Source: Schistocephalus solidus (lineage: Eukaryota > Platyhelminthes > Cestoda > Diphyllobothriidea > Diphyllobothriidae). Taken from it: a stretch of 64,000 bases of DNA. The notes beneath the pieces were generated by a model. The model worked only from the letters and a program-made list of their open reading frames with translations. It had not been told where the DNA came from and searched no databases. The first letter of the stretch is position 1. The number at the start of each line of letters is the position of its first letter. Location of the stretch: contig WEDG01004009.1 in assembly GCA_017591395.1 (NCBI GenBank), forward strand, positions 1-64,000. The letters run 5' to 3'. Of the stretch, positions 9,961 through 57,429 are shown piece after piece. A program made the translations under genes and the position numbers.

Positions 9961-10717
9961 CCCTTTACCATTAGTCCATCTTAAAATTGTCAGAAATGAC
10001 TCTGATAATAATCATTGCTGAAATTGGTTTTAGATGTCGAAGTATTTAATATACCAATAGCTTAAGGCCTAGGTATGCGCATGTCAAGTTTTCTATTGCT
10101 GCATGACACAGATGGAGAAACTCAGGTCTTCAATGGGTCCACTTGTCTTGCAATGTAGTCTAATTTTAACTATCGAGTTTTTTAAATTTCCCCACAAATT
10201 CATGCAAGATGTTCACCGAATCCTGCAGGACAATCCTTTTTATTTTTTTATCCACTATTAATTTTTGTTAAGGAGATAAAAATGCTTACAAACGGACTTC
10301 TCAATAAATAAATTTCCGTATCAACGCTTTTGGTACACGAAAAACGTCACGATATGCGAAAAATTGGTTGCATGGGTTACATAGGTGGACTTTGAGGAAA
10401 AAGAATTCCATGATTGGACTGGAGGCAAATAAGAGACTTAAATATTTTCTGAAATATTCGGCTTTGATGTATTACTCGTTACATGGAACATATCGGTCCA
10501 AAAATTATCATACTCTCTGACGTGCATCGAAGATTTTTTCGGGTGGAAGGGAAACGAATCAGCATCACTACACACTACAGCAGTTATTTTCAACCTAGAT
10601 CATACAGAAGTTATTAAACGACTTGCATCACTTTTGTGACCAAACTCATGTAAGTAAACTTAAGATGGTCTGAAGAATGAAGGAATACCGTCCAACCATC
10701 GCCTCGTTATGGTTGAC
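9961..10717. other. no recognised gene
   Basis: AT-rich single-copy-looking sequence between a family A repeat and the polypyrimidine tract. Nothing supported. Confidence 0.45.
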
Positions 10718-12338
10718 CATTCTTTTTCTTTATCTTCTTCATGTTCTTCTTCTTATTCTTCTTCTTCTCTCTACTTCTTCTTATTTTTATTCTTCTTTTT
10801 GTTTTTCTTGTTCTTTATCTTCCTCTTTTTCTTATTATTCTTCTCCTTTATCTTCGTTTTCTTCTATTTCTTTTTCAAACTTCATATTCTTATTCATCAT
10901 AAATATCTTTTTCTTCATCTTCTCTTCCTTTTTCTTTTCTTATTATTCTTTGTTTTCCTCAATTTCTTTTGCATCTCCTCCTCCATTTTACTTCTTTTTC
11001 TTCTTATTTTCCTTCTTTTTCTACTTTATCTTCATCTTCTTATTTTTCCCTTCCTCCTTCTCATTATTTGCTTCTTATTCTTCCTAAATTCTTCATCTTC
11101 TCCTCCTCATTTTCTTTCTTCATCTTCTAATCATATGACTCCTACTGCTTTTTATTTTTCTTTTCTCCTTTATCATCATTTTTTCTTCCTGCATTTTCCT
11201 TTTTTTCTTTTTTTCTCTTCGTCTATTTTATTATTTCTTTTTATTCTTGTTTTTCTTTTTATTATGCTTCCTTATATTCTTCTTCTTCTTTTTATTCTTC
11301 TACTTCTCCTTTTTTCTTCTTCTTCTTCTACTTCACCATCCTCCTCTTCCCCTTCTTTTCCTCGTCCCCGCCTCCTTTTCCTCGTCCTTCATCTTCTTCT
11401 TCTTCTTTTCTATCTCCTTCTTATTTTATTCTTCTTGTTATTCTCATTTTTTTATTTTTCTTTTCTCCTTCTTCTTCTTCGTCATCTTCAATCTTTTTCT
11501 TCATTCTGCTTCGTCTACTCGTTCGTGTTCTTATTGTCATTCTCTTCCTTATTCTTCTTTATCTTTATCTTTTTCTTTTACTTCTTTTTATTCTTCTGCT
11601 TCTTTTTATTTATTATTTTCCTTCTTTTTTCTTTTAGGCTTCTCCTTATATTTCTTCCAAATCTTATTTTCTTCGTCTTCTTTACTAACTTCTGCTTACT
11701 CTTTCTTTTATTTTTCTTCTTCTTATGTTTTACTTTGCTTCTTCTAATTATCCTTTTTTATTATTTATCTTCTGCATCATAATCTTATTCTCCTCCTTTT
11801 TTCTCTTCTTTTTTCATTCTTTCTTCTTATCATTCTTTTTCTTCTTCTTCTTCTTCTCCTCCTTCTTCTTCTAAATTTACATCTTCGTTTCCTCATTCTC
11901 ATTCCCCTTCTCGTCCCCTTCTTATTCTTTTCCTCTTCCATCATCTTCTTTTTCATGTTCTTCTTCTTCATCTTCACTTCTTTTTCTCCTCTTCCTCCTC
12001 CTCCACCACATTCTCTTTTTTCTCATTGTTTTCCTTCATTCTTATGATAATCATAATCATCTTCTTGTTCTTGTTTTTCTTATTTTTTCCTTCAGTTTTT
12101 CTTGTTCTTACTGTCCTCATCCTCTTTCATATTATTGTATGTCTTCTTCTTTGACTCCTCTTTTTCTTTTCTCTTTCTTCTTTTTTCATTGTCGTCTTCT
12201 TCTACTCCTTTTACATCTCCGCATTTTGCTTTTTTGCTTTTTCTTATATTTTTTCTTCGTATTTTCTTCTTCTTCTTTATTTTCTCCCTCTTCATGTTTC
12301 TTAAATTTTTTCTTTTTCTTTGCTTCTTCTTCTTCTTC

Positions 12339-12353
12339 TTCATCACCATCATT

Positions 12354-12447
<94 letters not shown>

Positions 12448-12450
12448 CCT
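12339..12450. repeat. (ATC)n microsatellite
   Basis: About 33-36 near-perfect ATC/CAT units in the middle of the polypyrimidine tract, with small imperfections at the start (CACCATCATT). In the three frames it would read as runs of S, H or I, so any frame through it is not a gene. It probably grew by slippage. Confidence 0.97.
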
Positions 12451-12544
12451 TCTTCTTCTTCTTTGCTTTTTCCTGCTCTTTCTTCATATTATTCTTCTTC
12501 TTTCTATTTTTATTTTTTTCTTCTTGTCCTTAGTCGTCATCGTC

Positions 12545-12600
12545 CTCATCATCATCATCGTCATCATCATCATCATCATCCTTATCATCACCATCATCTC
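12545..12600. repeat. second short (ATC)n patch
   Basis: Interrupted CATCATCATCGTCATCATC units about 100 bp after the main ATC array, separated from it by TTC-rich sequence. Confidence 0.85.
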
Positions 12601-13768
12601 CTTTTTTGTTTTTCTTCATCTGGCACGTCATTTTCTAGTTGCCCTCCTCCAACTTCTCCTTTTTCGTCTTTATCTTCTTCTTTCGCTTCCTCCTATTATT
12701 CTTCTTTTCTCTTTCTGTTTGTTTTTTTCGTCGTCGTAGTCTTCTTTTTCTTCTTTTCCCTTTTCTTCATTATAATTATCTTCTTTGTCTTCTTTTACTT
12801 TCCTCCTTGTCTTTATTCTTAGTCATTTTATTTTTCTCTTTCTTCTTCATCTTCCTCTTATTCTTCTTATTTTTCTCCTTCTTTTTCGCTTCTTTTTATA
12901 TTTTTTCGTGTATTTTGTTTCTTCTTCGTCTTATTTTATCTTCTTCTCCTCCTCCTTCTGTTTTTCTTCTTATCCTCCTTCTTCTTTCTCATCATCATAG
13001 GGATAATCATCTTCTTTTTCTTCTTCAGATTCTTCAGGTTCTTATTCTCCTCGTACTTATTATTCTTCTTTATCTTCTTCTTCCGCTCCTTCTTTTTCCT
13101 CTTTTTCTCTTTCTTTGCTTCTTCTTATTCTACTTCTTTTTCTCCTTCATTTCCCCTATTGCTTCTTCTTCTATTTATTTTTCTGTTTTTTCTTTTCTTC
13201 TTCTTTTTTCCCATTCATCTTCTTTATCTTCTTTTTTTTCACCCTCTTCATATTATTCATCTGATTCTCTTTTTTCTCTTTGATTCTCCCTCTTATGATT
13301 ATTTTTCTTCTTTTTATGCTTCTTCTTATTCATCTCATTCTTCTTCGTCTTCTTTTCCTCCTTACTCTTCTTTATCTTCTTCTTCCTCATCCTTTTTTTC
13401 TTCTTTTTCTCCTTTTTACTTTTCTTCTTCTTCTACTTCTTATTTTTTACTTCATTAGCATCATCTTCTTCTCCTCCTGCTTTCTCTTCTTTTTATTTTC
13501 TTGGTCTTCTTTCTTCTTCTTCTTCTTCTACGTCATCATCATATTCATTTGCTTCTCGTCCTCCTCCTCTTTGTACTTCTTTTTCTTCATCTTTATCCTC
13601 ATCTTCTTCATCTTCTTATTATTATCCTTCTCCTTTTCCTATTCGTCCTTCTTTTTCTTTTTCTTCTTATTCTTCTTATGCTTCATTCTATTCTTCTCCT
13701 CCTCATTTTCATTTTTATTTTTCTTATTCTCCTTCATCGTCGTCGTTTTTGTCATCTTCTTTATTTTA

Positions 13769-15139
13769 AATACTATCAAACGATGACTATGATATACCAC
13801 TGAAGGTGCGTTTACTGCTTTAAATCATTTATTACGCCATCCTTCTAAGCCTCGACCAATTCCACGATCCACGGATGGGCTGCAGTGCACACCACATCAC
13901 ATTTTTTCTATGAATTCACGTGCACCTGAGGATGCAAGTACATTGGACGAACAAAAGACCATTTACAGCCAGATCTATTGAGCACCTGCCCAGGTGGCTT
14001 CATAAAAGAAAAAAAACATCTCACGTTCTTCCACTACGAGCGATTTCTGATAGCGATCACTCATCTACTCTCAAAACATAATTCGGACTACTTGTTCGGG
14101 CATGAACAACTCGTTCATTAAGCTACTTGGAGGCGGCCTATATAAGGCGTGTGAAACCAAACGTTTGTTAACCGTTTGAGCACGTTGTCAACCTAAATTT
14201 GCCATGGTAACCTCTAGTTCTTGATTTTCACATTTTCCGCCTGCCTTTTTTGCTTATTAAAATGTTTCCTCCCGTCTTATCCTTCCAATATTATGTTTAA
14301 CGATACTTATTCTACTAATAAACCTGTACAGCACTATACCTTGACCTCGCTGTTTTGTATTGGTCCACTTCTATACGAATTCAAGTTTTTCCGTATTCTC
14401 TCATTCGTTTTTATGCTTTTCAGCGACAGAATGCAGCAGTGATCTGTGGATAAGCACAAAGCCACCTGCATTATGGGGCGCTCCTATTTTCTTGTCCTGC
14501 CTGGGTGTCAAACAAACTAGTCCTGTCGCCAATTTTCTCACAACAACTATATGAAGTCTTTTCACCAGGACAATTCTCATTATTAGCATTCCAAAGTTCT
14601 AATTTAAATTGGTTTTAAGTGCCCTGTTTTAGAAGAAACGCATATACACGTGCTTACTCTGGTAAGTTATCGCTGTTCTCAAGTTCGAGCTTTCCTTACC
14701 TAAGTTGTCCGGTTTGTATGTAGTGTTGTATCCCTCGTTCATCTGTCTACCAACCATTACCCACCCGCCTCCACATTAGCTGGTACCTTTACATAGTCAC
14801 ATGCTATTCCTCACAGAGATGCTCCTGTGAAAGAGCTTCGCACCTAAATCTTAAATAACACAATTTTTGTGCTTCTAGATACTTTATCAGAATCAGCATA
14901 TCAATGACAAAAATGAAAGATTAACAAATATGGCGGACAAAGTAGAAACGGTTCTTTTGAATATTTGTGGGCCCTATTGAAAACGATGAGCCGAAATTAT
15001 GTTAAATATGTTCTCCTGTTGAAGTTTATTTAAAATAAATGTGCTACCTTATAAACTTTTGATCGAATATCTGAAATGTATTTTTTATTTAAAAGGACTA
15101 ATTAAGGAGTGTTTTTGTACTAATTTTGCTGTGGCATAA
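13769..15139. other. no recognised gene
   Basis: Returns to mixed composition. Small open frames at 14221-14590 on both strands have no recognisable motif. Confidence 0.45.
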
Positions 15140-15960: not shown

Positions 15961-16211
15961 ACAAATACAGAATTTCAGTTGGTATTTAATGGAACAGCAA
16001 ATCAACATGAAAGCCGGATTTTCGTTTTACAAGTGAATGTTGGCATTTTGGCGTATTTTTACTGAACTTACCCCTGCATCTCCTGAGTTCGCTAAAGCAA
16101 TACACTGAGACTAGAAAAAAACAAAATGACTCTATGGCCCCTCCTACTCTGTCAAAAAATAATTTCTGTGGATGGGCCCAAAGATCCCCTTTTAACAACA
16201 ACAATCAGCAT

Positions 16212-16581
16212 ACCCTGTGCCTGTTTCTGGGGTGTAAGTTGCACAGGCAAACATCATGTCCTGCCAAATCATGATGCCCAGCCGGCTGGCGAGGTCATAG
16301 AAGTGGCGCGATTCATAACGGCCACCGCCCCAAACCCGCAGCATATTGGTACCAACCATGGCTGCGGAGCGGAGCACCTCTTCCATTGGCCCGGTCTCCA
16401 TGTCCTGTACTGGGCTGCTGCTATTCGGTCTGACTCGATATAAACCGGGATGTTTGCCGGGAAGCAGTCTCTGCGGGATCCAGTTGCTTCCCTTGGCGAA
16501 CACCGGGAGGCCATTCACTTTAAAAAAGAAGGTTGAACCAAAGTCCTGCAGACTGCCGTTTGAGGAAATTTGAATCGGTTG
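16212..16581 (-). CDS. beta-mannosidase (GH2) internal exon
   Basis: Beta-mannosidase is the lysosomal exo-hydrolase that removes terminal beta-mannose in N-glycan breakdown. The minus strand reads without stops through the characteristic stretch FFFKVNGLPVFAKGSNWIP, then NMLRVWGGGRYE, FYDLASRLGIMIWQDMMFAC, which is the GH2 TIM-barrel start. The acid/base Glu (NE motif) would fall in a later exon, not found here. A 3' splice site is likely at TTCCGACAG, putting the first exon base at 16581. A donor such as CAGG|GTATGC near 16212 is plausible, but the exact end is uncertain. An insertion of about 20 residues after GSNWIP, relative to vertebrate enzymes, is odd but in frame. The exon is GC-richer than its AT-rich flanks. 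It could be an isolated pseudo-exon, but the intact frame argues for a live gene with long repeat-filled introns. Confidence 0.85.
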
Positions 16582-16619
16582 CTGTCGGAACGGAAGTTGC
16601 AAATCAGTGGATTAGTAAT

Positions 16620-21600: not shown

Positions 21601-23675
21601 TACGTCAGACCAACAAGCAACGTAGTGAATAGTGGTCAGTTCTCAAAATGCACCTGGATGGAAAAATATTGCTGCAATGTTTGGAAAAGCGTTTACCAAT
21701 AAGGACTGATGGAAAATATCATTACAGCTATTGTATTAACAAGTAAATTTTGGCAATGAAATCTTAATTTTTTTACTGAGTAAACGAACGGCTTTGCAGA
21801 TGCCCACTGTGAACACAAGTAGCAAATGGAGAAAATCAAGGCTATGATGCGAATGCTACTAATTACACTACAGAATATTCATACTACAGCATAACAACTG
21901 CGATTCTTGCCTTTGGATTATCAGCGGCTATCGCCATACTGCTTTGCCTAGAAGCTTTAATCACGCTCCAAATAATCTCGATGATAGCATTCCTACGATC
22001 AATCAATGTCACCTTTAGGTTCTGTCCACTTTCTGCGGAATATATTATTCATAGGTTCACGAGCGATCAAGGAATAATGTGGCCTAACGCCTTGTTGCGA
22101 CATGTCTCAGTAGGTGTTGGAAATCACCTTTGATTCATTGAAGACAAGCGAAGCAAGCAAACGGGCTGCGTCCCATTATCTTCTAAACTATGTCCAATGT
22201 GATCTGCCACGCAATATGTATTTCCTTCGTCAAACTGTTCCCATTTTATCCCTGAAACCCTATTGAGGCAAGTAGGTTTGCTTTGTCAGAAAAAAATAAC
22301 CTCCATTGGAAAAGCCCACTCCTGTTCGATGCTGTCCTTTTCCATTGACTACGTATTCCGACGTAATCTCTCTTGCAAGAGTTTCAACTTTTTAAGGACG
22401 CAACTTCAATTACTTTCACAAGCCATACTCTGCTTTTGAATCGAGCAACTGTCGTTCACGTGATTCCGTTAATATGCAATTGCCCTCTGGATATGCCCAA
22501 AATACTCTACAGTGGTTTGATGCCGCCGCGTCTCTTTTTTGTGTGCTGCACATCCTTCTTCCATAAATGTTTCATGCAGAGCTAAGCTTAAAAAAGGCAA
22601 ATTGTCCCAACGAGTTATAAAACTCTTCAACCTGCATATCAGATTTTATTTGACCAACCCACGTAACACGCTGCGCTTTCTATTGTGGATTTAGTGTGAC
22701 CTATCAGACAAAGGTAAATTCAGGAAAAAATAAAAAATGTAAAAACGGTCAAATCGCTTTATCCAAAAACCTGATAAATCGCTTTTTTAAAGGAGACATC
22801 ATAGAAAGTAGAGCTAACGACTTGGAACACCCGTTATAGCTGTCTAGTTCGTCAGACTGTAAGTGTGTGAGTATTTTAGTTAATAGAAAGTATTGGTAAA
22901 AGCCAGGCTTCGGGCTAACGAACTACTCAAGTTAAACATAATCAAAGAAGATGACACTGCAACTGTAGGCTGACCAGATGTCAAAGCATTATGCCGGAGT
23001 TCGTAATCTAATTGATATTTTTCAGCACACTTTACCTTCGTACATCAACATCACCCCCAGAACTAAAGTGGACGAACCAAAGTGATGGTTTCTCTTGCTT
23101 AATCATATCATATCACACTAGTCATTTTTTTGTGTCCAACATAAGGGAACGCAAGTTACTAGCATAGCTGGTAGGCAGCTTCCGTGATCAATTCTGCAAA
23201 GGGCCTGATCAGTAATCGGTTCGATGTCGCCCAATCGCACAATATTTTTGAAGTTCATGTTCCAGGCCTGACATAGTTTATTAGAAAAATGCTCTTAGTT
23301 TTACGATAACAGAGTTCATCAAGTGGGTCTGCATAAATTAAAATTATGAGCAGGAAAACTTTTGAAATTGACTTTAAAGTTAGTCTGAGAGCTCTTCACT
23401 GCCCCCAACTAAAAGGGCTTGGCTCTGTGAACTTGAAGTAAAGATTGTACAGTCAAAAGTATTTAGTGCAAGTTGGCGGGAGGAGAAGTGCGGTCAACTG
23501 GAGGACAGTGGACAAGGTTGCACCACTTCCGCCTTAATCAAGCGAAGCATCCAAAAAATGCGAAACAGGTTCGTCAACCTGCTGCAAGCTTAACTTTTTT
23601 GTTTATTGAAACATTTTCGTTGCCACTGCATAGGCATTTGATACGGTATCCAGGGGGAAGTGACCTTGTTTTCAA
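21601..23675. other. no recognised gene
   Basis: AT-rich, with small unrelated open frames only. No repeats recognised inside this stretch. Confidence 0.4.
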
Positions 23676-23679
23676 GAAT

Positions 23680-23783
23680 GGATCTTTCGTTATATATATA
23701 TATATATGCAGAATAACTTGACCGACAAAGACAAGGGAGACTGGAATGGCCATTTCTGGCTTATTAGCCGTCATCAGCCAGCA
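23680..23783 (-). repeat. retrozyme-like repeat, partial copy forming an inverted arm
   Basis: This is the reverse complement of 23878-23966. It includes the whole hammerhead-like module and its 3' continuation (TTGACCGACAAAGACAAGG on the plus strand) and ends in a TA run at 23690-23707. It carries no tRNA head of its own and abuts the tRNA head of the plus-strand copy. The result is a hairpin-capable palindrome with about 90-bp arms and a tRNA-like loop. Confidence 0.85.
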
Positions 23784-23855
23784 ACGAGCTCGTATCACAG
23801 TGGGTAGAGCGTTGGACTTCTGCCCAACAAGGTCGCGAGTTCGAGGCTCGGGCGC
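23781..23855 (+). promoter_or_regulatory. tRNA-Arg-like head with Pol III A/B-box-like sequences
   Basis: A-box-like TATCACAGTGG at 23793-23803 (the 53.1-kb copy retains TGGCGCAGTGG, a near-ideal A box) and B-box-like GAGTTCGAGGCTC at 23837-23849. Between them GTTGG and CCAAC can pair around a loop containing CTTCTGC, which most resembles a tRNA-Arg(TCT) anticodon arm with one extra base. It cannot be a working tRNA: the acceptor stem is not closed and the loop is too long. Confidence 0.7.
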
Positions 23856-23877
23856 GGCAGCGCCTGAGTTTGGGTAT

Positions 23878-23922
23878 GGCTGGCTGATGACGGCTAATAA
23901 GCCAGAAATGGCCATTCCAGTC
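23878..23922 (+). ncRNA. hammerhead ribozyme-like core (type I)
   Basis: Read as RNA: stem I 3' side GGCTGG (23878-23883); conserved CTGATGA (23884-23890); stem II GGCT / AGCC with loop AATA (23892-23903), flanked by a C/A mismatch where G-C is usual; conserved GAAA (23905-23908); loop-less stem III ATGG/CCAT (23908-23915); the H17 position is T at 23916; stem I 5' side CCAGTC (23917-23922) pairs with GGCTGG over 6 bp with one G-U. Cleavage would fall between 23916 and 23917. The self-complementary stem III is the hallmark of schistosome-type hammerheads that work as dimers. Activity is inferred only; the mismatch at the base of stem II and an AUU rather than GUC site would weaken it. Confidence 0.65.
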
Positions 23923-24062
23923 TCCCTTGTCTTTGTCGGTCAAGTTATTCTGCCTATATACATAGCTGCCTTACGGCTGCTGGCGGGGCTTGAGAGTTAG
24001 CCCCAAGGCACAACGGGACGAGTGAGTCCTGTAACCGATCGGTGAGCGCCCCATTACCAATG

Positions 24063-24063
24063 T

Positions 24064-24096
<33 letters not shown>
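24063..24096. repeat. (TA)n microsatellite tail
   Basis: About 16 TA units directly after the body of the retrozyme-like repeat. The inverted copy upstream ends in a similar TA run at 23690-23707, so the tail belongs to the element. Confidence 0.9.
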
Positions 24097-24099
<3 letters not shown>

Positions 24100-24219
24100 C
24101 AAGTTTCACAGACGTATAATTTCTATAAGAAAAAGTGCGGCAGGGTTCGGTTATATGGTAGGTCACGGGAAAAGGAACTGCCACCTACTACATGTGGCTT
24201 TGCGGTGAACTCCAATGAA

Positions 24220-24302
24220 CTAAGCGTTAGGGTTAGGTTTGTGGTTAGGTTGAAGGTTGAGCTCAATAGTAGGGCTAGGGCCGATGTTTGGGTTAGATTT
24301 GA
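24220..24302. repeat. degenerate telomere-like (GGTTAG) tract
   Basis: GCGTTAGGGTTAGGTTTGTGG, GTTAGGTTGAAGGTTGAG, TAGGGCTAGGGCC, TGGGTTAGATTTG: imperfect TTAGGG-type units lying between two retrozyme-like copies. Confidence 0.65.
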
Positions 24303-24359
24303 TGAAAGAGTCAGGGCATGGAAATGTGTCTTTTCTCAGAAGGGAATATCAACAAAGGA

Positions 24360-24545
24360 CAACGGACCCTTGACTCAGTGATAGAGTGCTGAACTCGAAA
24401 GCGCTCAACGAGCAAACAATCAGGGTTCCAATCCAAGTTTCGCTTATCCTGGATTTAAGGTAGGGTAGACTAATAACGCTAGCAGGCTAGAAATAGCAAT
24501 CTCAGTCACCCTTGTATTTGTCGATACTCAATTCTGAATATATAT
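24360..24545 (+). repeat. retrozyme-like repeat, degenerate copy
   Basis: Has a tRNA-like head (TCAGTGATAGAGTGCTGAACTC, then GGGTTCCAATCC as a B box) and the later AGGCTAGAAATAGCAATCTCAG and CACCCTTGTATTTGTCG blocks. The CTGATGA half of the ribozyme core is lost (CTAATAACG instead), so this copy cannot self-cleave. Same strand as the copy 300 bp upstream. Confidence 0.7.
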
Positions 24546-26435: not shown

Positions 26436-28450
26436 TTGTGTTGGAAAATGTGTTCGCCTGCACGCTCCTCGAGCGGCCAAGCTGAGCAAGAGAAGACAAG
26501 ATACTGTGAGTTCATGGGCGAGAATGGGAGGAAACTGCTTCAGCAGAGGGTTACTAAACGGGTCCGCAAAATCAGAACGACACACGACGCAGCATTGGGG
26601 CACGAATTCCGTAAGCTGCAAGATCACACGTCCTCCAAAAACGAGATATTGGTACACCACCTGTCATCAAGTGAACTAATGCAGGAGAAAGTGCAGGTCT
26701 AACGGCACGAAACCTCGTTGCCAAACCTATTAACGTGATTACGGCAGTAGAACCGGTCATTAATCAAATGGAAGCAACGGAGGAGACAAAACACCTTATC
26801 CGGCACCAGGTGTGGTTCATCTTTATGGCTCATAAACCGCGCGAAATATCCCCTAAGGTCGAACGCAATGTACTAAAGGAACTCAAGGCCGATCGAGCCA
26901 TCATCCTCGTGCCCGCGGACAAAGGGCGTTCGATCGTCATAGTTGGCAGAACCAACTTTCTTCAGAAGGCCAAAAACATACTGGAGAACCGCCAATTTTA
27001 AATCCCATGTGAAAGCAACTCCGTAAATACGTTGAAACGCGAAATAACTGCGACGCTGTCTGGCCCTGGATAACTGGGATGCAATAACGTCGACCGACCG
27101 AGGAATGGCGAGAGCTCAAGACACTCAATGCACTCTAAAGTACGGACTGGTACTGTGGCTGTTTCGGCGTCTCAACTTTCTGACCGCTGAATCGGATACC
27201 ACGATCTGTTCGTCAACACAATTCTTGCAGAAACTGAAAGGGTAGGTCTCTAGCCAAGCGAGTTCATGGTAGCTTTTGATGCCACGTCCCCCTTTACTCC
27301 TATCCCCCAATATTTGGCCGTAGAGGCCGCTGAAAGCAAAGACAAGGAAACTGAGAATCGCTTTGGACAATCCCAAGTCCTTCAGCTCCTGAAGTTTTTG
27401 TCTGAGGACGTACTTCAGGTTTGACAGAACAGTCTGCGAGTGGGTAAAGGTAATACCAGTGAGCTTGGTGATCACGGGACTCATATTCGATGTGGTCCTA
27501 AACCAGTTGGAGTCGCTGGTAATCTAACACCACAGACCAAAGTTCTGGAATGATTATGTGGTGATACCTTTGTAATCATCGAACGAGATCATGTGCTCAC
27601 GTTCAAAGAACATCTCAAAAACGTATTCGCGGACATACAGATTACGATAGAATAGTAAAAAACAACCAGTTGGTTTTCCGCGATGTCCATGTCTGTCGCA
27701 AAGAGTAAAGTAACCTAAAGACCAAAATTTTTAGGAAAGATACAAATATGATGCAAGCACTCAACTTCAACCGCAACCACCCAAGTAGTTACAAACGCAG
27801 TTGCGTACCAGCTTGCTGAGGCGCACTACACTAAAAACATGAAGACAAGGTTGCCGAATTACAATTTCTTTGACGGATGTTCAGAGAAAATGACCATGTG
27901 CACAATGTCATCAACTGCTGCATGTGTTAACGAGACGAGTGAAAATATCGCACTGACCTCAAATTTTGGCGGGCGATTCCATACGTTAAAAATGTCCCCG
28001 AGGTCATCAAACACCTCGCACCACATGGAGCTGGAGTCGCACATAGACCGGAGGCAACAATTAGGTGTCAGGTAATGAAACCAAAGGACCAATTACCACG
28101 GCAAGAAACATGTGGAGTCGTTGAGCAGATCTAATGCAGATGTGGGCAAAGCAACTACGCCGGAGAAATTGGAAGACTGCTTTGGACGCGAATCCAAACA
28201 CGTGATAGCAGTACGGAGAAATTACGCCGATTCTCAAATCGTGGCTCGCTGGCACAAGAAAATTATTCACTTGAAGTTAAGGATTCCTGTTCAAACCCAT
28301 CATCGGAGATATCGTCATGTAACCGAATTTGCGCATAAGTAAAGGCCTCTCGAAAGGAAATGTTTCTCGGAGCAGATCGGAGCGCTTCGCGCCCAAACAA
28401 ATTTCGAACAGAAGCAAACATTCGAGTCCCGTATCAGCTTATTGCTCTGT
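26436..28450 (+). pseudogene. Penelope-like element, near full length, decayed
   Basis: PLEs encode a telomerase-related reverse transcriptase and a C-terminal GIY-YIG endonuclease. Seen in order: N-terminal GENGRKLLQQRVTKRVRKI (about 26520) and ELKADRAIILVPADKGRS (about 26880-26935); MARAQDT (about 27105), after which the usual LPKVHK block is missing through a small deletion; LFRRLNFLTAESDTT; RT motif A region EFMVAFDATSPFTPIPQ (about 27262-27312); the YVDD box near 27555 broken by a frameshift, followed by DTFVIIERDHVLTFKEHL; RT thumb WRAIPYVKNVPEVI (about 27985) and PEATIRCQVMKPKDQLPRQ (about 28051-28105); then the GIY-YIG start with CGQSNYAGEIGRLL (about 28130-28170) and RRNYADSQ. At least ten stops or frameshifts. 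Dead. Confidence 0.9.
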
Positions 28451-30839: not shown

Positions 30840-32352
30840 GTGGAATTCAAACACATGCCAGCAAGGGAGAAGACTTTAGTACAGCCAACGCCGACATCAG
30901 CAAAATTATTCGCGGAGAAAAAAATGCTACACAAAGCCTACATGGACCTTCGGACTGTTGCCACTAAAGCAGCCTTCTTTAGATGCCACCGCATTGTACA
31001 GCAACGGCTGCGGGATATGCAGGATGCCAGGATGATCCAAAAGGCTGAGGAAATCCAGGTGTATGCGGACTGCAATGAAACGAAAACCTTCTTCAAACCC
31101 CTCAAGGCCATCTACGGCCCCTGCATCAAGGGGACCACACCGCTGCTCAGCTCTGATGGCACAACACTGCTGTCAGAGAAATACAAAATTCTGAAGCGCT
31201 GGGTCGAGCAATTCAGAAGTGTCCTTAATTTCTTATCAGCCATCTACGATGCTGCCATTGACCGCTCCCTGAAGTGGACACGAACAATGACCTCGGTCTG
31301 CAGCCTTCCCTATCAGAAAATATCCGGGCTGTGCAGCAGATTTCCAGCGGTAAAGCACCGGAATTTGACACAATCCCACCGAAAGTCTACAGGCACGGTG
31401 GACCCCGGCTGATAGCAGAACTCTCAACACTCTTCCAGGAGAAGTGGCGCCAAGGACACGTTCCTCCGGATTTCAACGACGCGACCATTGGTCATCTCCA
31501 CAAGCGGAAGGGGAACTGGTAGCTCTGTTATAAACAGGGGGCATCGCTTTGCTGAACACCGCCGGGAAGATCTTATCCCGTATCCTTCTCAATCGTCTGA
31601 ATTGACACCTGGAGCAGAGACTGCTCCCGGAAAGCCAACATGGGTTACGATGACAACGCGGAACTTACGACACGATTTCCGCCGCCCACCAGCTACAATA
31701 GAAGTGCCAGGAGATGCGAACCCACCTCGACACTACCTTTGTAGATCTGCCGATAGCCTTTGACATGGTGAATCGTGATGGACTGTGGAACGTCATGCGA
31801 AAATTCGGCTGAACAGAGCGGTTCACGCATATGGTGCGTCAGTTTCATGACGAGATGATGGCACGCCTCACTGACAACGGGACGGTATCCGAAGCCTTTG
31901 ATGTGCCCAACGGAGTGAAGCAGGGCTGCGTACTGGCCCCCACCCTGTTCAGTCTCATGTGCTTTCTTTTGCTGATTGACGCCTTCCGTGATGAGCAGCC
32001 TGGGATCTGCATCGCCTACAGAACTGACGGGCACCTTCTTAAAAGTAGGCGTATGCAGGCAATAACGCGCGTGTCTACGGCTACATTCCATGACTTGCTC
32101 TTCGCGGACGACTACGGCCTTAACACCAAGACGTATAAGGACAGGCAAAGGAGCACGGCCCTCTTCACCACACATTGCGCAAATTTTGGATTAACAATCA
32201 GTACATCCAAAACTGTGGTGATGCGTCAGCAACCTTCCTATGCGGAATACGACGTTCCTTGAATCAATGTCAACGGCGCTCAACTCCAAAATGTGGAAAA
32301 CTTTGCTTATCTGATAAGCAGGGTGTCACACAACATGAGAATCGACGACGAG
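30840..32352 (+). pseudogene. LINE copy 1: endonuclease-RT retrotransposon, RT part
   Basis: Non-LTR retrotransposons copy themselves by target-primed reverse transcription. This 5'-truncated copy starts after the endonuclease. Seen: linker AEKKMLHKAYMDLRTVATKAAFF and EKYKILKRWVEQF (30860-31230); RT entry SSGKAPEFDTIPPKVYRHGG (about 31346-31405) and LFQEKWRQGHVPPDF; motif A region FVDLPIAFDMVNRDGLW (31738-31790); GVKQGCVLAPTLFSLM (31915-31962); the catalytic box FADD (32101-32112); INVNGAQL (about 32264). Frames change at least three times and several TGA/TAG stops occur. The copy ends after RIDDEV at 32352, where the repeat shared with 29.97 kb begins. It retains the 1.06-kb segment deleted from LINE copy 2. 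Confidence 0.92.
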
Positions 32353-38862: not shown

Positions 38863-39477
38863 TTACGTGTCCGGGATCCTGTCTTGCCATCTCAGCTTCA
38901 GTATTCTGCGGAAACAGCTGAGATGAAAGTGATTCAGCTTCCTGGCTTGGTTCGAGTAGACGGTCCTGGACTTCGCTTCGTAAAGGAGTGTCGTCATAAC
39001 GATGGCTTTGTACATCTTCAGTTTGGTGTTCATGTGGATACTGTGGCGATTCCACATGGAGGCCTGCAGCCAGCCGAAGGCTTGCCTAGCTTTGGAGATC
39101 CGTTGGGCAACCTCGTCATCGATTCTCGTGTTGCGAAACATCGTGCTTCCTAGATAAGCGAAGGTTTCCACGTTTTTGAGTTGAGCACCGTTGACATTGA
39201 TTCGAGGAGCATTGTATTCCGCGCTGGGTGGCGGCTGGTGCATGACAACCATTTTGGCTGTACTGATTGTTAATCTAAAATAAGCGCAGCCGGTGGCGAA
39301 CAGGTCCATGCTCCTTTGCATGTCCTTCTTCGTCACGGTGTTAAGAGCGCATTCGTCCGCGAAGAGCAAGTCATGGACTGTAGTCGTAGACACATGCGTT
39401 GAAGCCTGCATACGCCGACTGAAGAAGGCTGCTTTAGTGGAAACAGTCCGAAGGTACATGTAGGCTTTGTGTAGCAT
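38863..39477 (-). pseudogene. LINE copy 2 RT C-terminal segment with deletion scar
   Basis: A single open frame of about 204 codons fuses KAAFF of the RT linker directly to SRRMQASTHVSTTTVHDLLF, the residues just before the catalytic FADD box (here FADE, second Asp changed). The junction lies at 39422-39428 in the 7-base word AAGAAGG (CCTTCTT on the coding strand). In LINE copy 1 the same word occurs at both sides of the lost segment (30973-30979 and 32034-32040). The frame stays open to RIPDT at 38863. Confidence 0.88.
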
Positions 39478-39753
39478 TTTCTTCTCTGTGAATTATTTGT
39501 TGATGCCGGCGTCATTGTCGTCAAACCAGTCCTGGTGTTGACGGCTTGCGCGTTAAAGGACTTCGAGAGCGGTGGATTGGATGATATTTCGCAGTTGATA
39601 CCATTGTGTCTCCACGGTGTCGATATCATCTGGAACATGCAGGTCCTCCAGTTCGGGGTTATTTGTTCGCTGAAATCAATACAGTGAGCAGGCAAATTTA
39701 ACAAAATTGTATTTAACTTACATGTTGGTTGCTTACCTTCGCCAGGGTTGAAT

Positions 39754-40440
39754 TCAGAGCCTGATTTTGGAGTGGACGATGCGGTGATCTGTCCAAACAT
39801 CGTCCTCGCGGATTGCCTTGTTCACCAGCACGTCCTGTAGATCTCCCCTCTGGACCAGAACATAGTCCAGCAGCCGCCAGCGCCGCGACCGAGGGTGCAT
39901 CCACGTGGCCTTCTCCAGCGTCAGAAGGCGGAAGAAGGTGTTGGTCAGCAGGATACGGTGTTCCGTACAGGTTCGCTGAAGAAGGAGGTTGTTATCGTTA
40001 CAGTTACCGAGATCGTGGGGACCCAGCACTCCATGCCAGGCAGCGTGGTCCGTCCTGACGCGGGCGTTGAAGTCACCAAGGACGGTCGCCAGCAGGGCGT
40101 GCAGGTCCTCGTAGAATTTCTCATTCACCACATCAGATCTCGTCATTGTGGGAGCGTAAGCGCTGATGATGTTGGCGAACTGGTCTCCCCCAAAGTGGTA
40201 GCGGAGGCTCATCAGACGATCATTGATACGCTGCGGCAGATAGGGCAGACGTCCCACGATGTCGTTTCGGATGGCAAGGGCGACACCAGCGTTGCATTGC
40301 TCTACCTTTGGCTGGCCGCTTCTGAAGAAGGTGTAGCCGGCACCCACCTCCTCCAATTCACCCTGCTCAGAGAATCGGGTCTCACTGAAAGCAGCAATGT
40401 CCACCTTGTTGCGCCCCAGTTTGCGAGCAACTAGCGCCAT
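39754..40440 (-). pseudogene. LINE copy 2 endonuclease domain (APE type)
   Basis: About 228 codons open without a stop. Motifs: [20 protein letters not shown] with the metal-binding Glu near the start, [15 protein letters not shown], the signature VLGDFNARV (residues about 118-126), [15 protein letters not shown], and the closing TDHRIV (the SDH-type motif). This enzyme nicks target DNA to prime reverse transcription. All key residues I can check are present, so this is the best-preserved domain in the window. The frame shifts right after HSKIRL. Confidence 0.9.
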
Positions 40441-40560
40441 CCTCCATTCCAGCCGGTTGTTGCTACAATAGTCTTAAGGGAACGAAAATTCCAGGCTGCT
40501 AGTGTGAGCGGACTCACCCAAGCAGCCGGAGGGTATGGCGCGGGTCATGGGGACGGTGGG

Positions 40561-41699: not shown

Positions 41700-42470
41700 T
41701 CCATTATCTGAGGTAAGTTTTGTACGGCACCTCACAGTATTTGCGGGTGCTGTTCATGCTAGCTTGCTGTTTTTTCCAGGGCTAGTCGTGCAAGTTGCAC
41801 TACGGGAGGGGAAGTCGATTGCTGTCATAATAGCCATTACCCTTCTCCCTCTCCTCGTCGTGGCCGTATCTGGATGGCAACAGCCGTTGCTTTCGTTTGC
41901 ATTGCCCGCATTTGTTGTCCCTGAAACGCAAATCCTGTCCTTTTCTAAGGTTTGCGTCTTCGCTTTTATCGCGCTGGCGACGCCTGTCACGGGCGTTTAT
42001 GCGCGAGCTTTGTTTATGCCCTTTTGCGTTAAAGTCAGACAGTTTGACTTCTCTGTAGTTTCCCCTACGGCTGTGTTTGTGTCTGATATACGTTCAGGCC
42101 CGCCTGTTTTATAACTTGTTATGGCTTTGCTTACGATCGTTTCCGCTGATTGGTCCTCGCAGGTAACGTCTGGTACATCTGGGAGAGTCATACAGCGGTT
42201 GATAGAAGTTGGTACGGAGTGTCAGATTATAAGCGCTTCCCTGCCTGTTTGACCGATGCTTCGGTGTCCTGAAAAGCGAAGGGGGTTCAAGAGGCTGCAC
42301 AGTCTTCAGTCACCAGTGCGACCTGGTCAGTTCTTCTCGCTGCCCTGGAATGCTTACTTATGTGGGTCTTCAGTTGTTTACTGGTCTCTCCAGATTACCT
42401 CGACTCACAGAAACTGCAGGGGACACGATAGACCACATTCACATTTTCACCTCATGGCAGATTGATCTTG
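41700..42470 (-). pseudogene. Penelope-like element 2, C-terminal part (different lineage)
   Basis: Minus-strand 42455-42300 reads VNVVYRVPCSFCESR-stop-SGETSKQLKTHISKHS, the start of a GIY-YIG endonuclease (VVYRV..., then the GET block that follows the YIG). The Tyr of the YIG is replaced by a stop (TAA). The sequence differs clearly from the PLEs at 28.1 and 57.3 kb, which have CSCGQSNY, so it is a separate PLE lineage. Downstream (lower coordinates) two minus open frames (42191-41997 and 41990-41754) have no recognised domain and are probably its 3' region. No reverse transcriptase is attached on the 5' side. Confidence 0.75.
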
Positions 42471-42479
42471 GGACCATTT

Positions 42480-42684
42480 ATACCTAGGGACGCGCAATTA
42501 CGCTTCATTTAGCAATATATATTTCATATGTCAAAGGTTTTATACAGTGCCACTTGAAAGCCCAGACATGGTGCATCTGCGAGGGACTCAGCTCCATAGT
42601 GGGTCACCTGACCTTCTCTATGCATTGATTACAAAACAGTACCCATTGCGTAGCTTGCAGCATGATCTCAAAATAGTTAGGTAA
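42480..42684. other. spacer
   Basis: AT-rich, nothing recognised. Confidence 0.45.
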
Positions 42685-47649: not shown

Positions 47650-48030
47650 TTCCCAACAAATAAACAAGTAGATAAATATTGCCGGCAAAGACAAGGTATA
47701 CTGGAATTGCCATCTATGGGTCATTAGTCGTCATCAGTCAATCGATCCTAGGAGGATCGAAGCAACGACCCACTGAGCAGAAGTCCATCGCTCTAACCAT
47801 AGAGCCACGGGCTCGATGTGTTGCCAGGTTAGATCGGGAATATGGACTTGTATCCATTGATGAACGCTCAACGATCACTAAGGGAACTCTCTCGTTCCGT
47901 TCTGCATTTAGGCTCACTCTCGAGCCCCGCCACCAGTCGCACAGCGAATAGGCAGATAAACATTACCGGCAAAGACAAGGAGACTGGAATGGCCATTTCT
48001 GGCTTAGTAGTCATCGTTGGTGATTGGTGA
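47650..48030 (-). mobile_element. retrozyme-like repeat, 1.3-unit head-to-tail copy
   Basis: In the minus sense: ribozyme-core part (48028-47984: CAACGATGACTACTAAGCC, AGAAATGGCCATTCCAGTC), body (GGCGGGGCTCGAGAGTGAGCC, GATCGTTGAGCG), linker, tRNA-like head (CGTGGCTCTATGGTTAGAGCG, ATGGACTTCTGCTC, TTGCTTCGATCC), then a second core (GACTGATGACGACTAATGACCC..., CAATTCCAG) and GTCTTTGCCGG. The CCAG blocks of the two cores are 283 bp apart (47701 and 47984), giving the unit length. The first core has lost part of CTGATGA and the second has a damaged GAAA. Confidence 0.8.
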
Positions 48031-53030: not shown

Positions 53031-53034
53031 ATGT

Positions 53035-53390
53035 GACAAGGGGGACTGGAAAGGCCAGTTCTGGCTTATTAGCCGTCATCAGCCAGCCATACCCAACTTC
53101 AGGTGTTGAAGAACCCGAGGCTTAAACTCGCGATTTGGCGGTTAGGATTCCAACGCTCTACCCACTGCGCCACTAGCTCGTTGTTTTGTTTATTTCAATC
53201 GGGATTATTAACAATGGTAGATGGGCGTTCACCGATTGGTTACAGGACTCACTCGTCCCGTTGTGCCTTGGGGCTCACTCTGCAGCCCCGCCAGCAGCCG
53301 CAGAGCGGCTAGTGATATAGGCAGAATGATATTACAAGCAAAGACAAGGGGAACTTGAATAGTCATTTCTGGCTTATTAGCCGTATTTGT
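53035..53390 (-). mobile_element. retrozyme-like repeat, 1.15-unit head-to-tail copy
   Basis: In the minus sense it starts inside a first core (GGCTAATAAGCCAGAAATG, 53388-53365), continues through the body (GCGGCTGCTGGCGGGGCTGC, GCCCCAAGGCACAACGGGACG, ACCAATCGGTGAACGCCC), a linker ending AATAAACAAAACAACGAGC, the tRNA head with A box TGGCGCAGTGG (53172-53162), and a second core, and stops at ACAAGGG near 53035. Equivalent points in the two cores (53059 and 53367) are 308 bp apart. Start and end both fall in or beside the ribozyme core, as expected if linear units are copied from a circular or multimeric template. Confidence 0.82.
53044..53088 (-). ncRNA. hammerhead ribozyme-like core, one core base lost
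   Basis: GGCTGG, CTGATGA, C, GGCT-AATA-AGCC, A, GAAC, then TGGCC..., CCAGTC. Identical to the 23.88-kb core in stems I and II, including the same C/A mismatch, but GAAA has become GAAC, which should abolish cleavage. Confidence 0.7.
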
Positions 53391-53394
53391 GAGA

Positions 53395-54505
53395 TTCACA
53401 ACACCTGTTAAAGCCCAAATATGCATATTTTTCGTGCAAATTGACCTCTGGGTTTCAGTATATTTTGACAAAATAAAATATTTAAAAATACCTTATTACA
53501 TTTTGGTAGCAATTTCACACGAAAACTTCATGCTGGCCATTGAAAATAACGGCTTTCTGTAAAAATTTCAATCATTTTCGGTGGCAGCGACAGCAGCAGA
53601 AACGTGCTATTTATCTGGGGGTTCCAAAGTCATTGATTTCATCTAACAAAATTTAAGATGCCTTATAAAGGACAGTTTCACCGTTGTGAATGACGACTTT
53701 CATTGTATACCAGACGACGTGGGCAGGCAGAACGGTGAAGTGTAAGTGAATTGATTTGCAGTGACAGCAGACTTACGCAGCGTCTACTGCACTATGCCAT
53801 TACCCCACACCTTGCTCTCATATCCAGGCAAGGGCAAAACGTCTTGCAGCAGCCAGTCTACGCATACCACATACAACCGGGTTACCACAGAGTGTACCTG
53901 TCTTTCATGGGAGGCGCCTTTGATCTCACATGCGTGCGAGTGCTATAGTGTGCTTTTTAACCTAGTGACATGTTCGCATTTCATTCCGAGTGGGCAAGTA
54001 GGATCAGCTTGTGCATCCGCGAGGTTTTCACCAAATTTACCTTCTTATAAGTGCAAAATGCGTTCCCCGGATTTCCTGATGCATCGGCAGGATTAGGCGG
54101 AGCACCAAAACAGAAACGCTTTCCGGGGACGTATCCCTTACGCCCACAAGTAATCTGTCCTACAGCCTCGCGAAAATGTGCTATCAGTAAATTTAAAGTT
54201 TCAATAGCTTGTGACAGGACTGTAGGCAGAATGAGAACTGGTCTAACTGATAGTCCTAGGCACTGAAATTGGATTTTCGGAGGCTTCGCATCAGACTAAA
54301 ACGAAAGTTCACTGAGTAAGCAACATCGTTGAATCCAAAATAACCTGACAAAATAATTAAACGTGCTGTGGGATGCTAGTATCTGCGACGACCGAGCGTA
54401 CATAAATGCAGCAAAAAATTTGTAAATTCATTGACCGATCAAACTCGTTTTTGGGCATAGGAGGAGAAATGGCTTTCGTGATGTTGACTACTTTCCTTGG
54501 TAGCC
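53395..54505. other. mostly unrecognised; shared segment near 53.78 kb
   Basis: About 53765-53810 (GCGTCTACTGCACTATGCCATT) resembles about 56845-56880 (CAGCTGTTGCATTATGCTATT) on the same strand, so an old repeat lies here near two PLE fragments. Open frames at 53751-54266 have no motif. Confidence 0.4.
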
Positions 54506-54507
54506 GC

Positions 54508-54690
54508 TCACGCGTCCTCCTCAGGGCACGACTTTGAATTTGGGAGCGTGAGAATATTGGGCCAATCGGACAATCAGATTTCACGCCTGTTGCAGAAGGT
54601 CTGGCACTCGATGGAGGTCTTGAGTAATAACCACATAGATGTTCCAACCGCTTATCGGGCACTGTGCGAACAAATAAATGGCTCTACTAA
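54508..54690 (+). pseudogene. Penelope-like element 3, C-terminal fragment
   Basis: Reads VAAHASSSGHDFEFGSVRIL, then LLQKVWHSMEVLSNNHIDVP and TAYRALCEQI. This is the conserved C-terminal half of PLE GIY-YIG proteins: H..GH.F.F..V.IL..., a basic/acidic helix ending W, then IDLP-AYR-L. The GIY-YIG start and all of the RT are missing. It differs from the copies at 28.2 and 57.1 kb, so it is a third lineage. The frame continues a few codons past the motif. Confidence 0.75.
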
Positions 54691-56639: not shown

Positions 56640-56692
56640 CTTTATTAGCTTGACGTTTCGCATTCTCACTCGAGTCCATCATCAGACAGAGA
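56640..56692 (-). ncRNA. decayed hammerhead-like motif of the PLE terminal region
   Basis: Minus strand reads CTGATGA (56685-56679), a stem II region TGGACTC-GAGT-GAGAATGC in which only CTC/GAG still pairs, then GAAACGTC (56659-56652), matching the minimal stem III AC/GT plus cleavable C of PLE hammerheads. Family knowledge: PLE terminal repeats carry type I hammerheads. Stem II is largely broken and stem I is not evident, so this is a relic. Confidence 0.5.
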
Positions 56693-56711: not shown

Positions 56712-57429
56712 TAAGATAAGGATGTTATATTGCCCATGTTTTGCAGTATTAATGGGATGTAGATGCTCGGCCTCTACATGCCTATCAAAATTACCAGTTC
56801 CAGAGAGCATCGCAGATAGTTGCACGTGGTGTGATATTTGTTTGACTGGCCAGCTGTTGCATTATGCTATTGCCATGTCATTGCTGTGCGCCAATGTCTT
56901 TGCAAGAGTATCGGTTCTCACGCTCATCGCTTAGGTTGCATATGGTGTGATGGTGACCCGCAATCGAATTGCTGACGCCCGGATTTCGTTATCCATGCTA
57001 GTTTTTGGGAAATTTGGCTGGCCGATATTGGCACCAGGAACAGCGGCCATCCACACGTTCTCTGTATGACTAACTGCTTTGCTCAGGCAAAGTCTCAGCA
57101 CTGAATGTGGAGCGGGGAGGTCGTTGGGCGTTTTGGTTGATTTAGGGTCGGAAAACCAGGATTCGAGTATTTCGCGGTTCACGCGGTTGTCACCTCTAGT
57201 GAGAATTTCGACTTCATTAAACTTGCATGTGTGGCCGCGTCCCGTATAATGAGCCGTGACTTGGAAACTGGTGTCTTTCCTCCTCACTGCTGCTGCGTGC
57301 TTGGCCATTCGTGGTCGGAGTATTCTTCCAGTTTCCCCGATATAGTTGCTCTGTCCACAACTACACCAGACCCGATAAACGACCCCTAGGTGTTACTTGC
57401 CTCGGCAGTAGGTCTTTAGCCCTATGTTC

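Follow-up and report, generated by a model that had tools for sequence, protein, structure and literature searches.

The repeat at 23.8 kb in the DNA shown above, in which a tRNA-like head precedes a hammerhead ribozyme, raises the question of what kind of element it is and how it was inserted where it lies. The first-pass annotation took it for a single 316-bp SINE copy extending from 23781 to 24096. Mapping of the repeat in the window (the whole stretch of 64,000 nucleotides that was analysed) revealed a different layout. The repeating entity is a 309-bp tandem unit. An inverted pair lies here between two (TA)n tracts, and the copy at 23.8 kb is its right arm. At the supposed left boundary (23781/23782) this copy meets an inverted partial one (23708-23782) head to head, and the sequence at the supposed right boundary, from about 24065 to 24096, is target (AT)n outside the element. 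A monomeric SINE at 23781-24096 is ruled out by the tandem unit together with the inverted-pair mapping. The locus and its older relatives in the window are arranged as follows:

23691..23707, no strand: (TA)n target tract on the left side, read from the sequence, forming an inverted repeat with the right tract
23708..23782, minus strand: left arm, an inverted partial unit (unit 98-172) with its zone A end against (TA)n, from an 86-nt inverted repeat (98%) and unit mapping
23740..23782, minus strand: hammerhead core of the left arm, a descriptor match
23782..24069, plus strand: right arm, unit 1-288, with its zone B end against (AT)n, from unit mapping
23782..23877, plus strand: tRNA-like head, from the family box pattern and Rfam tRNA on family 2
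23793-23803 and 23838-23848, plus strand: approximate places of the A box, decayed in the window copy, and of the B box, positioned by eye
23878..23922, plus strand: type I hammerhead with predicted cut at 23916/23917, from sequence and descriptor
23939..23967, plus strand: zone A (unit 158-186), holding 25 of 58 family-1 array 3' ends
24055..24071, plus strand: zone B (unit 274-290), holding 24 of 58 family-1 array 3' ends
24065..24096, no strand: (AT)n target tract on the right side, overlapping the unit end by a few bases, read from the sequence
47665..48017, minus strand: older relic, in the tandem order ribozyme, body, linker, head, ribozyme
53034..53385, minus strand: old relic, in the same tandem order

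Judging by its predicted proteins, the host is a diphyllobothriidean tapeworm. The exon-like frame 16192-16611 (-) has 95% identity over 42% of its length to a protein of Dibothriocephalus latus, relatives of this frame being called beta-mannosidase by one source, and frame 56931-57392 (-) has eight relatives, of which the six named ones are from Schistocephalus, Sparganum and Spirometra. The window also contains LINE-like reverse transcriptase and endonuclease pieces at 31813-32262 (+), 38863-39492 (-) and 39754-40473 (-), and a long low-complexity pyrimidine-rich stretch (10664-13803) that is open in several frames.

Drawn as a circle, the 309-bp unit comprises the tRNA-like head (1-96), the hammerhead (97-141, cut at 135/136), a hairpin body and a linker able to pair with the bases following the hammerhead. 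A search of the genome assembly (603.7 Mb, 8019 contigs) gave at least 341 matches, many of them in arrays with a period of about 309 bp; scores were computed for 38 of the 1209 first-look candidates, and about 150 matches were listed. The working set consists of 37 loci, namely the window (or its copy L001) together with L009-L045 minus L027, which overlaps L043, and the runs in them are made of 1 to 33 pieces. A second family with units of about 305 bp (for example L010 252-555) differs from the first in head and body. A comparison of the majority sequences of families 1 and 2, built from 13 and 11 units, found changes at 2 of 45 hammerhead positions against 92 of 267 outside it (Fisher p 1.3e-5), and one plain pair of units gave 4/45 differences in the ribozyme vs 95/268 elsewhere (p 0.0002). 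The ribozyme is the best-conserved part between the families. Its exact core is present in 140 of 154 unique units, which had been collected through loose matching to the 3' part of the ribozyme, a selection that favours ribozyme conservation; when this anchor was not used, the exact core was found in 198 of 212 family-1 and 20 of 28 family-2 BLAST pieces.

Folded as a circle, the unit exceeds 100 shuffles in stability, with z values of -4.5 (family 1), -3.4 (family 2) and -1.9 (family 3). For analysis of covariation, 28 units were aligned: 14 of 138 family-1-like units chosen by a diversity filter, 12 of 14 family-2 units chosen by a length filter, and two relics; one of the 28, which spans an inverted join, was dropped. 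Among the remaining 27, two-sided changes were found in 26 of 94 consensus pairs, compared with 6-16 when the partners were slid, in a count from which relatedness between units is not removed and whose structure derives from the same alignment. Compensatory change in stems I-III, proposed earlier as a check on the ribozyme, is weak: the only ribozyme differences between the families are at two places in stem I, where one partner has changed and the pair is intact, and the two-sided changes lie in the head and body. A divergent old relic at L013 184-493 (-) has GGAT/ATCC in a body hairpin that reads GGAC/GTCC in family 1 and GAAC/GTTC in family 2, with pairing kept. There is also a third hammerhead family, with a 232-bp tandem unit, C at the cut, a U.U stem II base and no tRNA head seen by eye; its copies are located in L016 (with cores at 410, 642 and 874 on the minus strand) and in L028 at 2332 (plus strand), the latter between (TA)n tracts.

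The ribozyme itself agrees with what the first-pass annotation described. The core motifs CTGATGA and GAAA are present, as are the 6-bp stem I (GGCTGG/CCAGTC), the 4-bp stem II (GGCT/AGCC) and the palindromic stem III (ATGG/CCAT), and a U precedes the cut at 23916/23917. A descriptor of this architecture matches the window twice (23878-23922 + and 23740-23782 -), and produced one match in 150 window-size Markov sequences (mean 0.0067 per sequence), a rate that rules out a chance hammerhead. By eye, the core can be extended by an outer GGG/CCC helix beyond a small internal loop. Rfam hammerhead models gave no match in the whole window at the gathering score, nor in 23400-24500 up to an E value of 10. 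This silence is weak counter-evidence, since the same models, run without a known positive as control, also miss family 3 with its C at the cut (L016 and L028, up to E 5).

The suspicion that the C.A pair at the base of stem II is a family trait proved correct: among the 140 exact-core units this base is C.A in 135, U-A in three and C.C in two. The cut-site position H17 is U in all 140, a second trait that is expected to slow cleavage. The hammerhead monomer favours another fold in all three families tried, according to a folding programme that ignores the core's own contacts. We consider it probable that the ribozyme is active in some form. In the accessible part of one study, axolotl ribozymes whose stem III is weak or whose stem II base is a U.U mismatch worked better as dimers (PMC7229834), and the ribozyme of the Penelope-like element PAc required its protein, as far as the available text of its description goes (PMC11167929).

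The claim of a tRNA-Arg-like head with Pol III boxes holds for the family and less well for the window copy, where the A box looks decayed and no tRNA was called by ARAGORN or Rfam. A strict pattern of A box plus B box is present in 116 of 130 family-1 units, 4 of 14 family-2 units and none of 3000 random sequences, 10 of the 154 unique units being left out of these counts. In the searched loci L017, L029 and L030, two family-2 heads of L030 exceed the Rfam tRNA cut-off of 29 with 32.6 and 31.9 bits, and family-1 heads (L016, L028) reach at most 22.1 bits. The family-1 head looks Arg-like by eye. The run TTTT is absent from 116 of 130 family-1 units, so that long Pol III transcripts are possible, and the head would be the part used by Pol III.

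How the units were inserted can be read from the ends of the arrays. Of 58 family-1 array 3' ends, nine lie outside zones A and B, some of them at the edge of the fetched stretch; the binomial test applied to these zones treats the ends as independent, which may not hold. Neither zone coincides with the ribozyme cut. In family 2, 17 of 27 3' ends fall in the matching zones, where the sequence differs, and 10 outside. The 5' ends are scattered, with a small excess (4/58 in family 1) at 133-139. Cleaved linear monomers were considered as template and are unlikely, because the 3' ends are not at unit 135/136. A (TA) tract is present at 38 of 47 refined ends and lacking at nine, 12 of 59 runs that were not refinable being left out.

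Both ends could be classed in 14 of 23 head-to-head junctions, the other nine remaining unclassed. Twelve of these 14 pairs combine an arm ending in zone A with one ending in zone B (permutation p 0.018); among the twelve, L015 depends on a 27-bp arm, and the L041 arms come from different families. In the remaining two pairs both arms end in one zone: L014 (B/B, families 1 and 2) and L025 (A/A, family 2). The L041 pair extends from 1958 to 2252, with the family-2 arm on one side and the family-1 arm on the other. In nine of the ten pairs with two family-1 arms (L015 being left out), the distance between the paired arms is smaller than their mean distance to the other arms in 9/9 cases, each time with at least one other arm as close; those of L043 differ by 0.7% vs 2.8% between arrays.

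The L012 pair is enclosed by a 17-bp direct repeat, TACATACCATATTACAT. It is the one clear target repeat, most sites being in (TA)n, where repeats cannot be read. At each of its ends this repeat agrees with the unit over a few bases, perhaps the match used for priming. A slightly different junction rule gave 22 head-to-head and nine tail-to-tail junctions, and eight of the latter join family 1 to family 2. Such tail-to-tail neighbours, mostly across (TA)n, are seen in L010, L011, L014, L025, L026, L029, L033 and L043, as if one family had entered the (TA)n of the other.

Penelope-like elements are represented in the window by GIY-YIG pieces and by one hammerhead-like pattern:

27841-28239, plus strand: Penelope-like GIY-YIG piece
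42260-42481, minus strand: Penelope-like GIY-YIG piece
54500-54682, plus strand: Penelope-like GIY-YIG piece
56931-57392, minus strand: Penelope-like GIY-YIG piece
56652-56685, minus strand: minimal hammerhead-like pattern after the piece at 56931-57392

GIY-YIG-like pieces thus occur at no fewer than four places in the window, at least, and in nine of 36 other loci, one of them weak. With the Pfam GIY-YIG model a window frame scored 19.6 bits (cut-off 22.6) and one relative 23.7, and a search of the window for this domain at a stricter limit found nothing. The Penelope-type minimal hammerhead pattern is present in the window at 56685(-) and in L028, L033 and L045, one of these with TTGACGA, and absent from these sequences when they are reversed. 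The density of the pieces is roughly 1 per 16 kb, with four in the 64 kb of the window and nine in 145 kb of fetched loci. The nearness of these pieces to the arrays was set aside as proof, the density being alike in window and loci.

The element is best explained as a retrozyme whose head is of Pol III type, and the locus as the insertion of a non-autonomous retrozyme whose RNA circles were copied by a Penelope-like enzyme from both ends of a break, a reading to which we give a probability of roughly two in three (0.68). The unit and its arrays, the conservation of ribozyme and fold, the end zones, the junctions with (TA)n, the head-to-head pairs, the 17-bp repeat at one target and the Penelope-like pieces close by are observed; we infer transcription, cleavage, circles and enzyme. 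The tRNA-like head of each unit would drive Pol III transcripts through tandem arrays, and the type I hammerhead, probably as a dimer formed via the palindromic stem III, would cut them into 309-nt units that a cellular RNA ligase could close into circles. A Penelope-like enzyme would then cut both strands of an AT-rich target, in most cases (TA)n. The DNA ends so released may each prime on the RNA in AU-rich zone A (158-186) or zone B (274-290), and copying would continue, often for several rounds of the circle, leaving two copies joined head to head. Against this reading stand the C.A base and the U at H17, seen nearly throughout, the monomer's preference for another fold, the family-1 GC of 56%, the ends outside the zones (9/58 in family 1, 10/27 in family 2), the nine refined ends without the tract, the two same-zone pairs among 14, the nine unclassed junctions and the nine tail-to-tail ones. 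Further points against it are the departures from PAc, described below, in zone spacing and in the match to (TA)n, and the normal insertion by PAc ribozyme mutants. A bolder form is put forward tentatively, at a little under even odds: a Penelope-like enzyme would mobilise hammerhead RNA circles in trans, and the arrays would be the trace that this leaves in the genome. The two ends of a staggered break in AT-rich DNA would prime on a single circle, each in a different one of the fixed zones, and copying round that circle would produce head-to-head satellite arrays in one step.

The template could instead have been an unprocessed multimeric transcript, copied by a Penelope-like enzyme from internal starts, with the hammerhead minor or acting later. 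This is considered unlikely, although, according to the accessible part of its description, PAc works on unprocessed RNA and still inserts normally when its ribozyme is mutated (PMC11167929). The family-1 units without TTTT, from which long transcripts are possible, and a core weakened in two places (the C.A base and the U at the cut) also favour such a template. It leaves the strongest conservation, that of the ribozyme, unexplained, and the presence of one zone per arm with near-identical arms fits a bridging RNA circle somewhat better, though not decisively.

An account that dispenses with the circle and the Penelope-like enzyme alike has the unit as a tRNA-derived SINE moved by a LINE, with twin priming inverting one arm, arrays growing by DNA recombination and the hammerhead as a passenger. 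The tRNA-like head and the LINE reverse transcriptase and endonuclease pieces within the window are in its favour, as are long arrays, for example those of L036, L040 and L042, which vary inside as much as between loci, and twin priming is a process that yields inverted copies in LINE-1. It predicts one fixed 3' end, whereas two internal zones and multimer arrays starting inside the unit were found; the arms of 12 of 14 pairs end in different zones, and the ribozyme is conserved, all of which makes it improbable. Still less credible, and given very little weight, is a satellite expanding by DNA recombination alone with (TA)n as merely a fragile place, for which the 309-bp tandem period, the long arrays and the (TA)n at their edges would speak; it is opposed by 3' ends that recur in two zones while 5' ends scatter, and by scattered short insertions, head-to-head pairs and the 17-bp target repeat.

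The retrozyme reading, with copying by a Penelope-like enzyme, can be set against known systems. In the available portion of Cervera and de la Pena 2020 (PMC7229834), metazoan non-LTR retrozymes carry a type I hammerhead in tandem units 150-450 bp long and have a predicted self-paired circle, GC under 50% and, when present, target repeats of more than 4 bp. According to the same portion, tandem retrozymes occur in many animals, platyhelminths being named without detail, and are proposed to spread via RNA circles; enzyme and priming are left open there, with Penelope-like elements as strong candidates. The present element shares with them the type I hammerhead (by descriptor), the tandem units of 309 bp, a target repeat above 4 bp (17 bp) and the predicted self-paired circle. 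It differs in its tRNA-like head with A and B boxes, its C.A stem II base, its AUU cut triplet, the insertion ends found in this analysis and the GC content of family 1 (56%), families 2 (49.5%) and 3 (45%) being within the trait. Since GC under 50% is, in that portion of the source, a descriptive trait, the element would work like a retrozyme, as a variant.

The proposal that a tapeworm carries a tRNA-headed, hammerhead-bearing element like Sm-alpha is supported, the window proteins matching those of tapeworms. Sm-alpha and Sj-alpha of schistosomes were reportedly treated by Ferbeyre in 1998. Sm-alpha SINEs of Schistosoma mansoni carry hammerheads and, in the accessible part of one description, are called as tRNA-Gln, so that Sm-alpha has a tRNA-like head too and the combination of tRNA head and hammerhead is not new (PMC2770079). 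As far as Sm-alpha is known by this description, the likeness lies in both features occurring in a SINE-like repeat, and the difference in a family-1 head that looks Arg-like by eye instead of Gln-like. SINEs derived from tRNAs and moved by LINEs have a tRNA-like head, are short and non-coding, and occur in many copies. The present element has all these properties, including the A and B boxes, and departs from such SINEs in having two internal 3' end zones in place of a single fixed end, tandem multimers and a ribozyme.

Purified PAc, in the accessible part of its description, cuts both strands and extends them, with a preference for AT-rich DNA; it starts at two adjacent internal sites, 30-40 nt apart, which lack homology to the cut DNA (PMC11167929). 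Penelope copies of Adineta, as given in the available text, have an inverted terminal repeat next to them and 8-10 bp target repeats, and one of the inverted ends may bear a 31-bp tail (PMC3846280). The present element resembles Penelope-like elements in the use of both target strands, AT-rich targets, two internal start zones, tandem copies, an inverted copy with asymmetric ends and a hammerhead with short stem III. Its 309-bp unit lacks the ORF for reverse transcriptase and GIY-YIG, and is at most a passenger of such elements; unlike the PAc starts, its zones are about 105 nt apart and match (TA)n by a few bases.

Among the titles and abstracts listed in searches of open-licence literature, none dealt with such a tapeworm element or with two-zone, two-strand priming of retrozymes. 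The new part is the insertion footprint, with two end zones and both strands: the insertion sites record where copying began and on which DNA, both strands serving. If the proposed mobilisation in trans is true, it explains both the movement of animal retrozymes and the priming of the circle, and leads from RNA circles straight to satellite DNA. The pattern also points to RNA circles as one possible source of satellite DNA. The end pattern resembles that of purified PAc in vitro, as far as the accessible account of that enzyme goes (PMC11167929), so that the conjecture of Penelope-like elements as candidate enzymes for retrozymes can be put to the test, both in genome data and by an assay at the bench.
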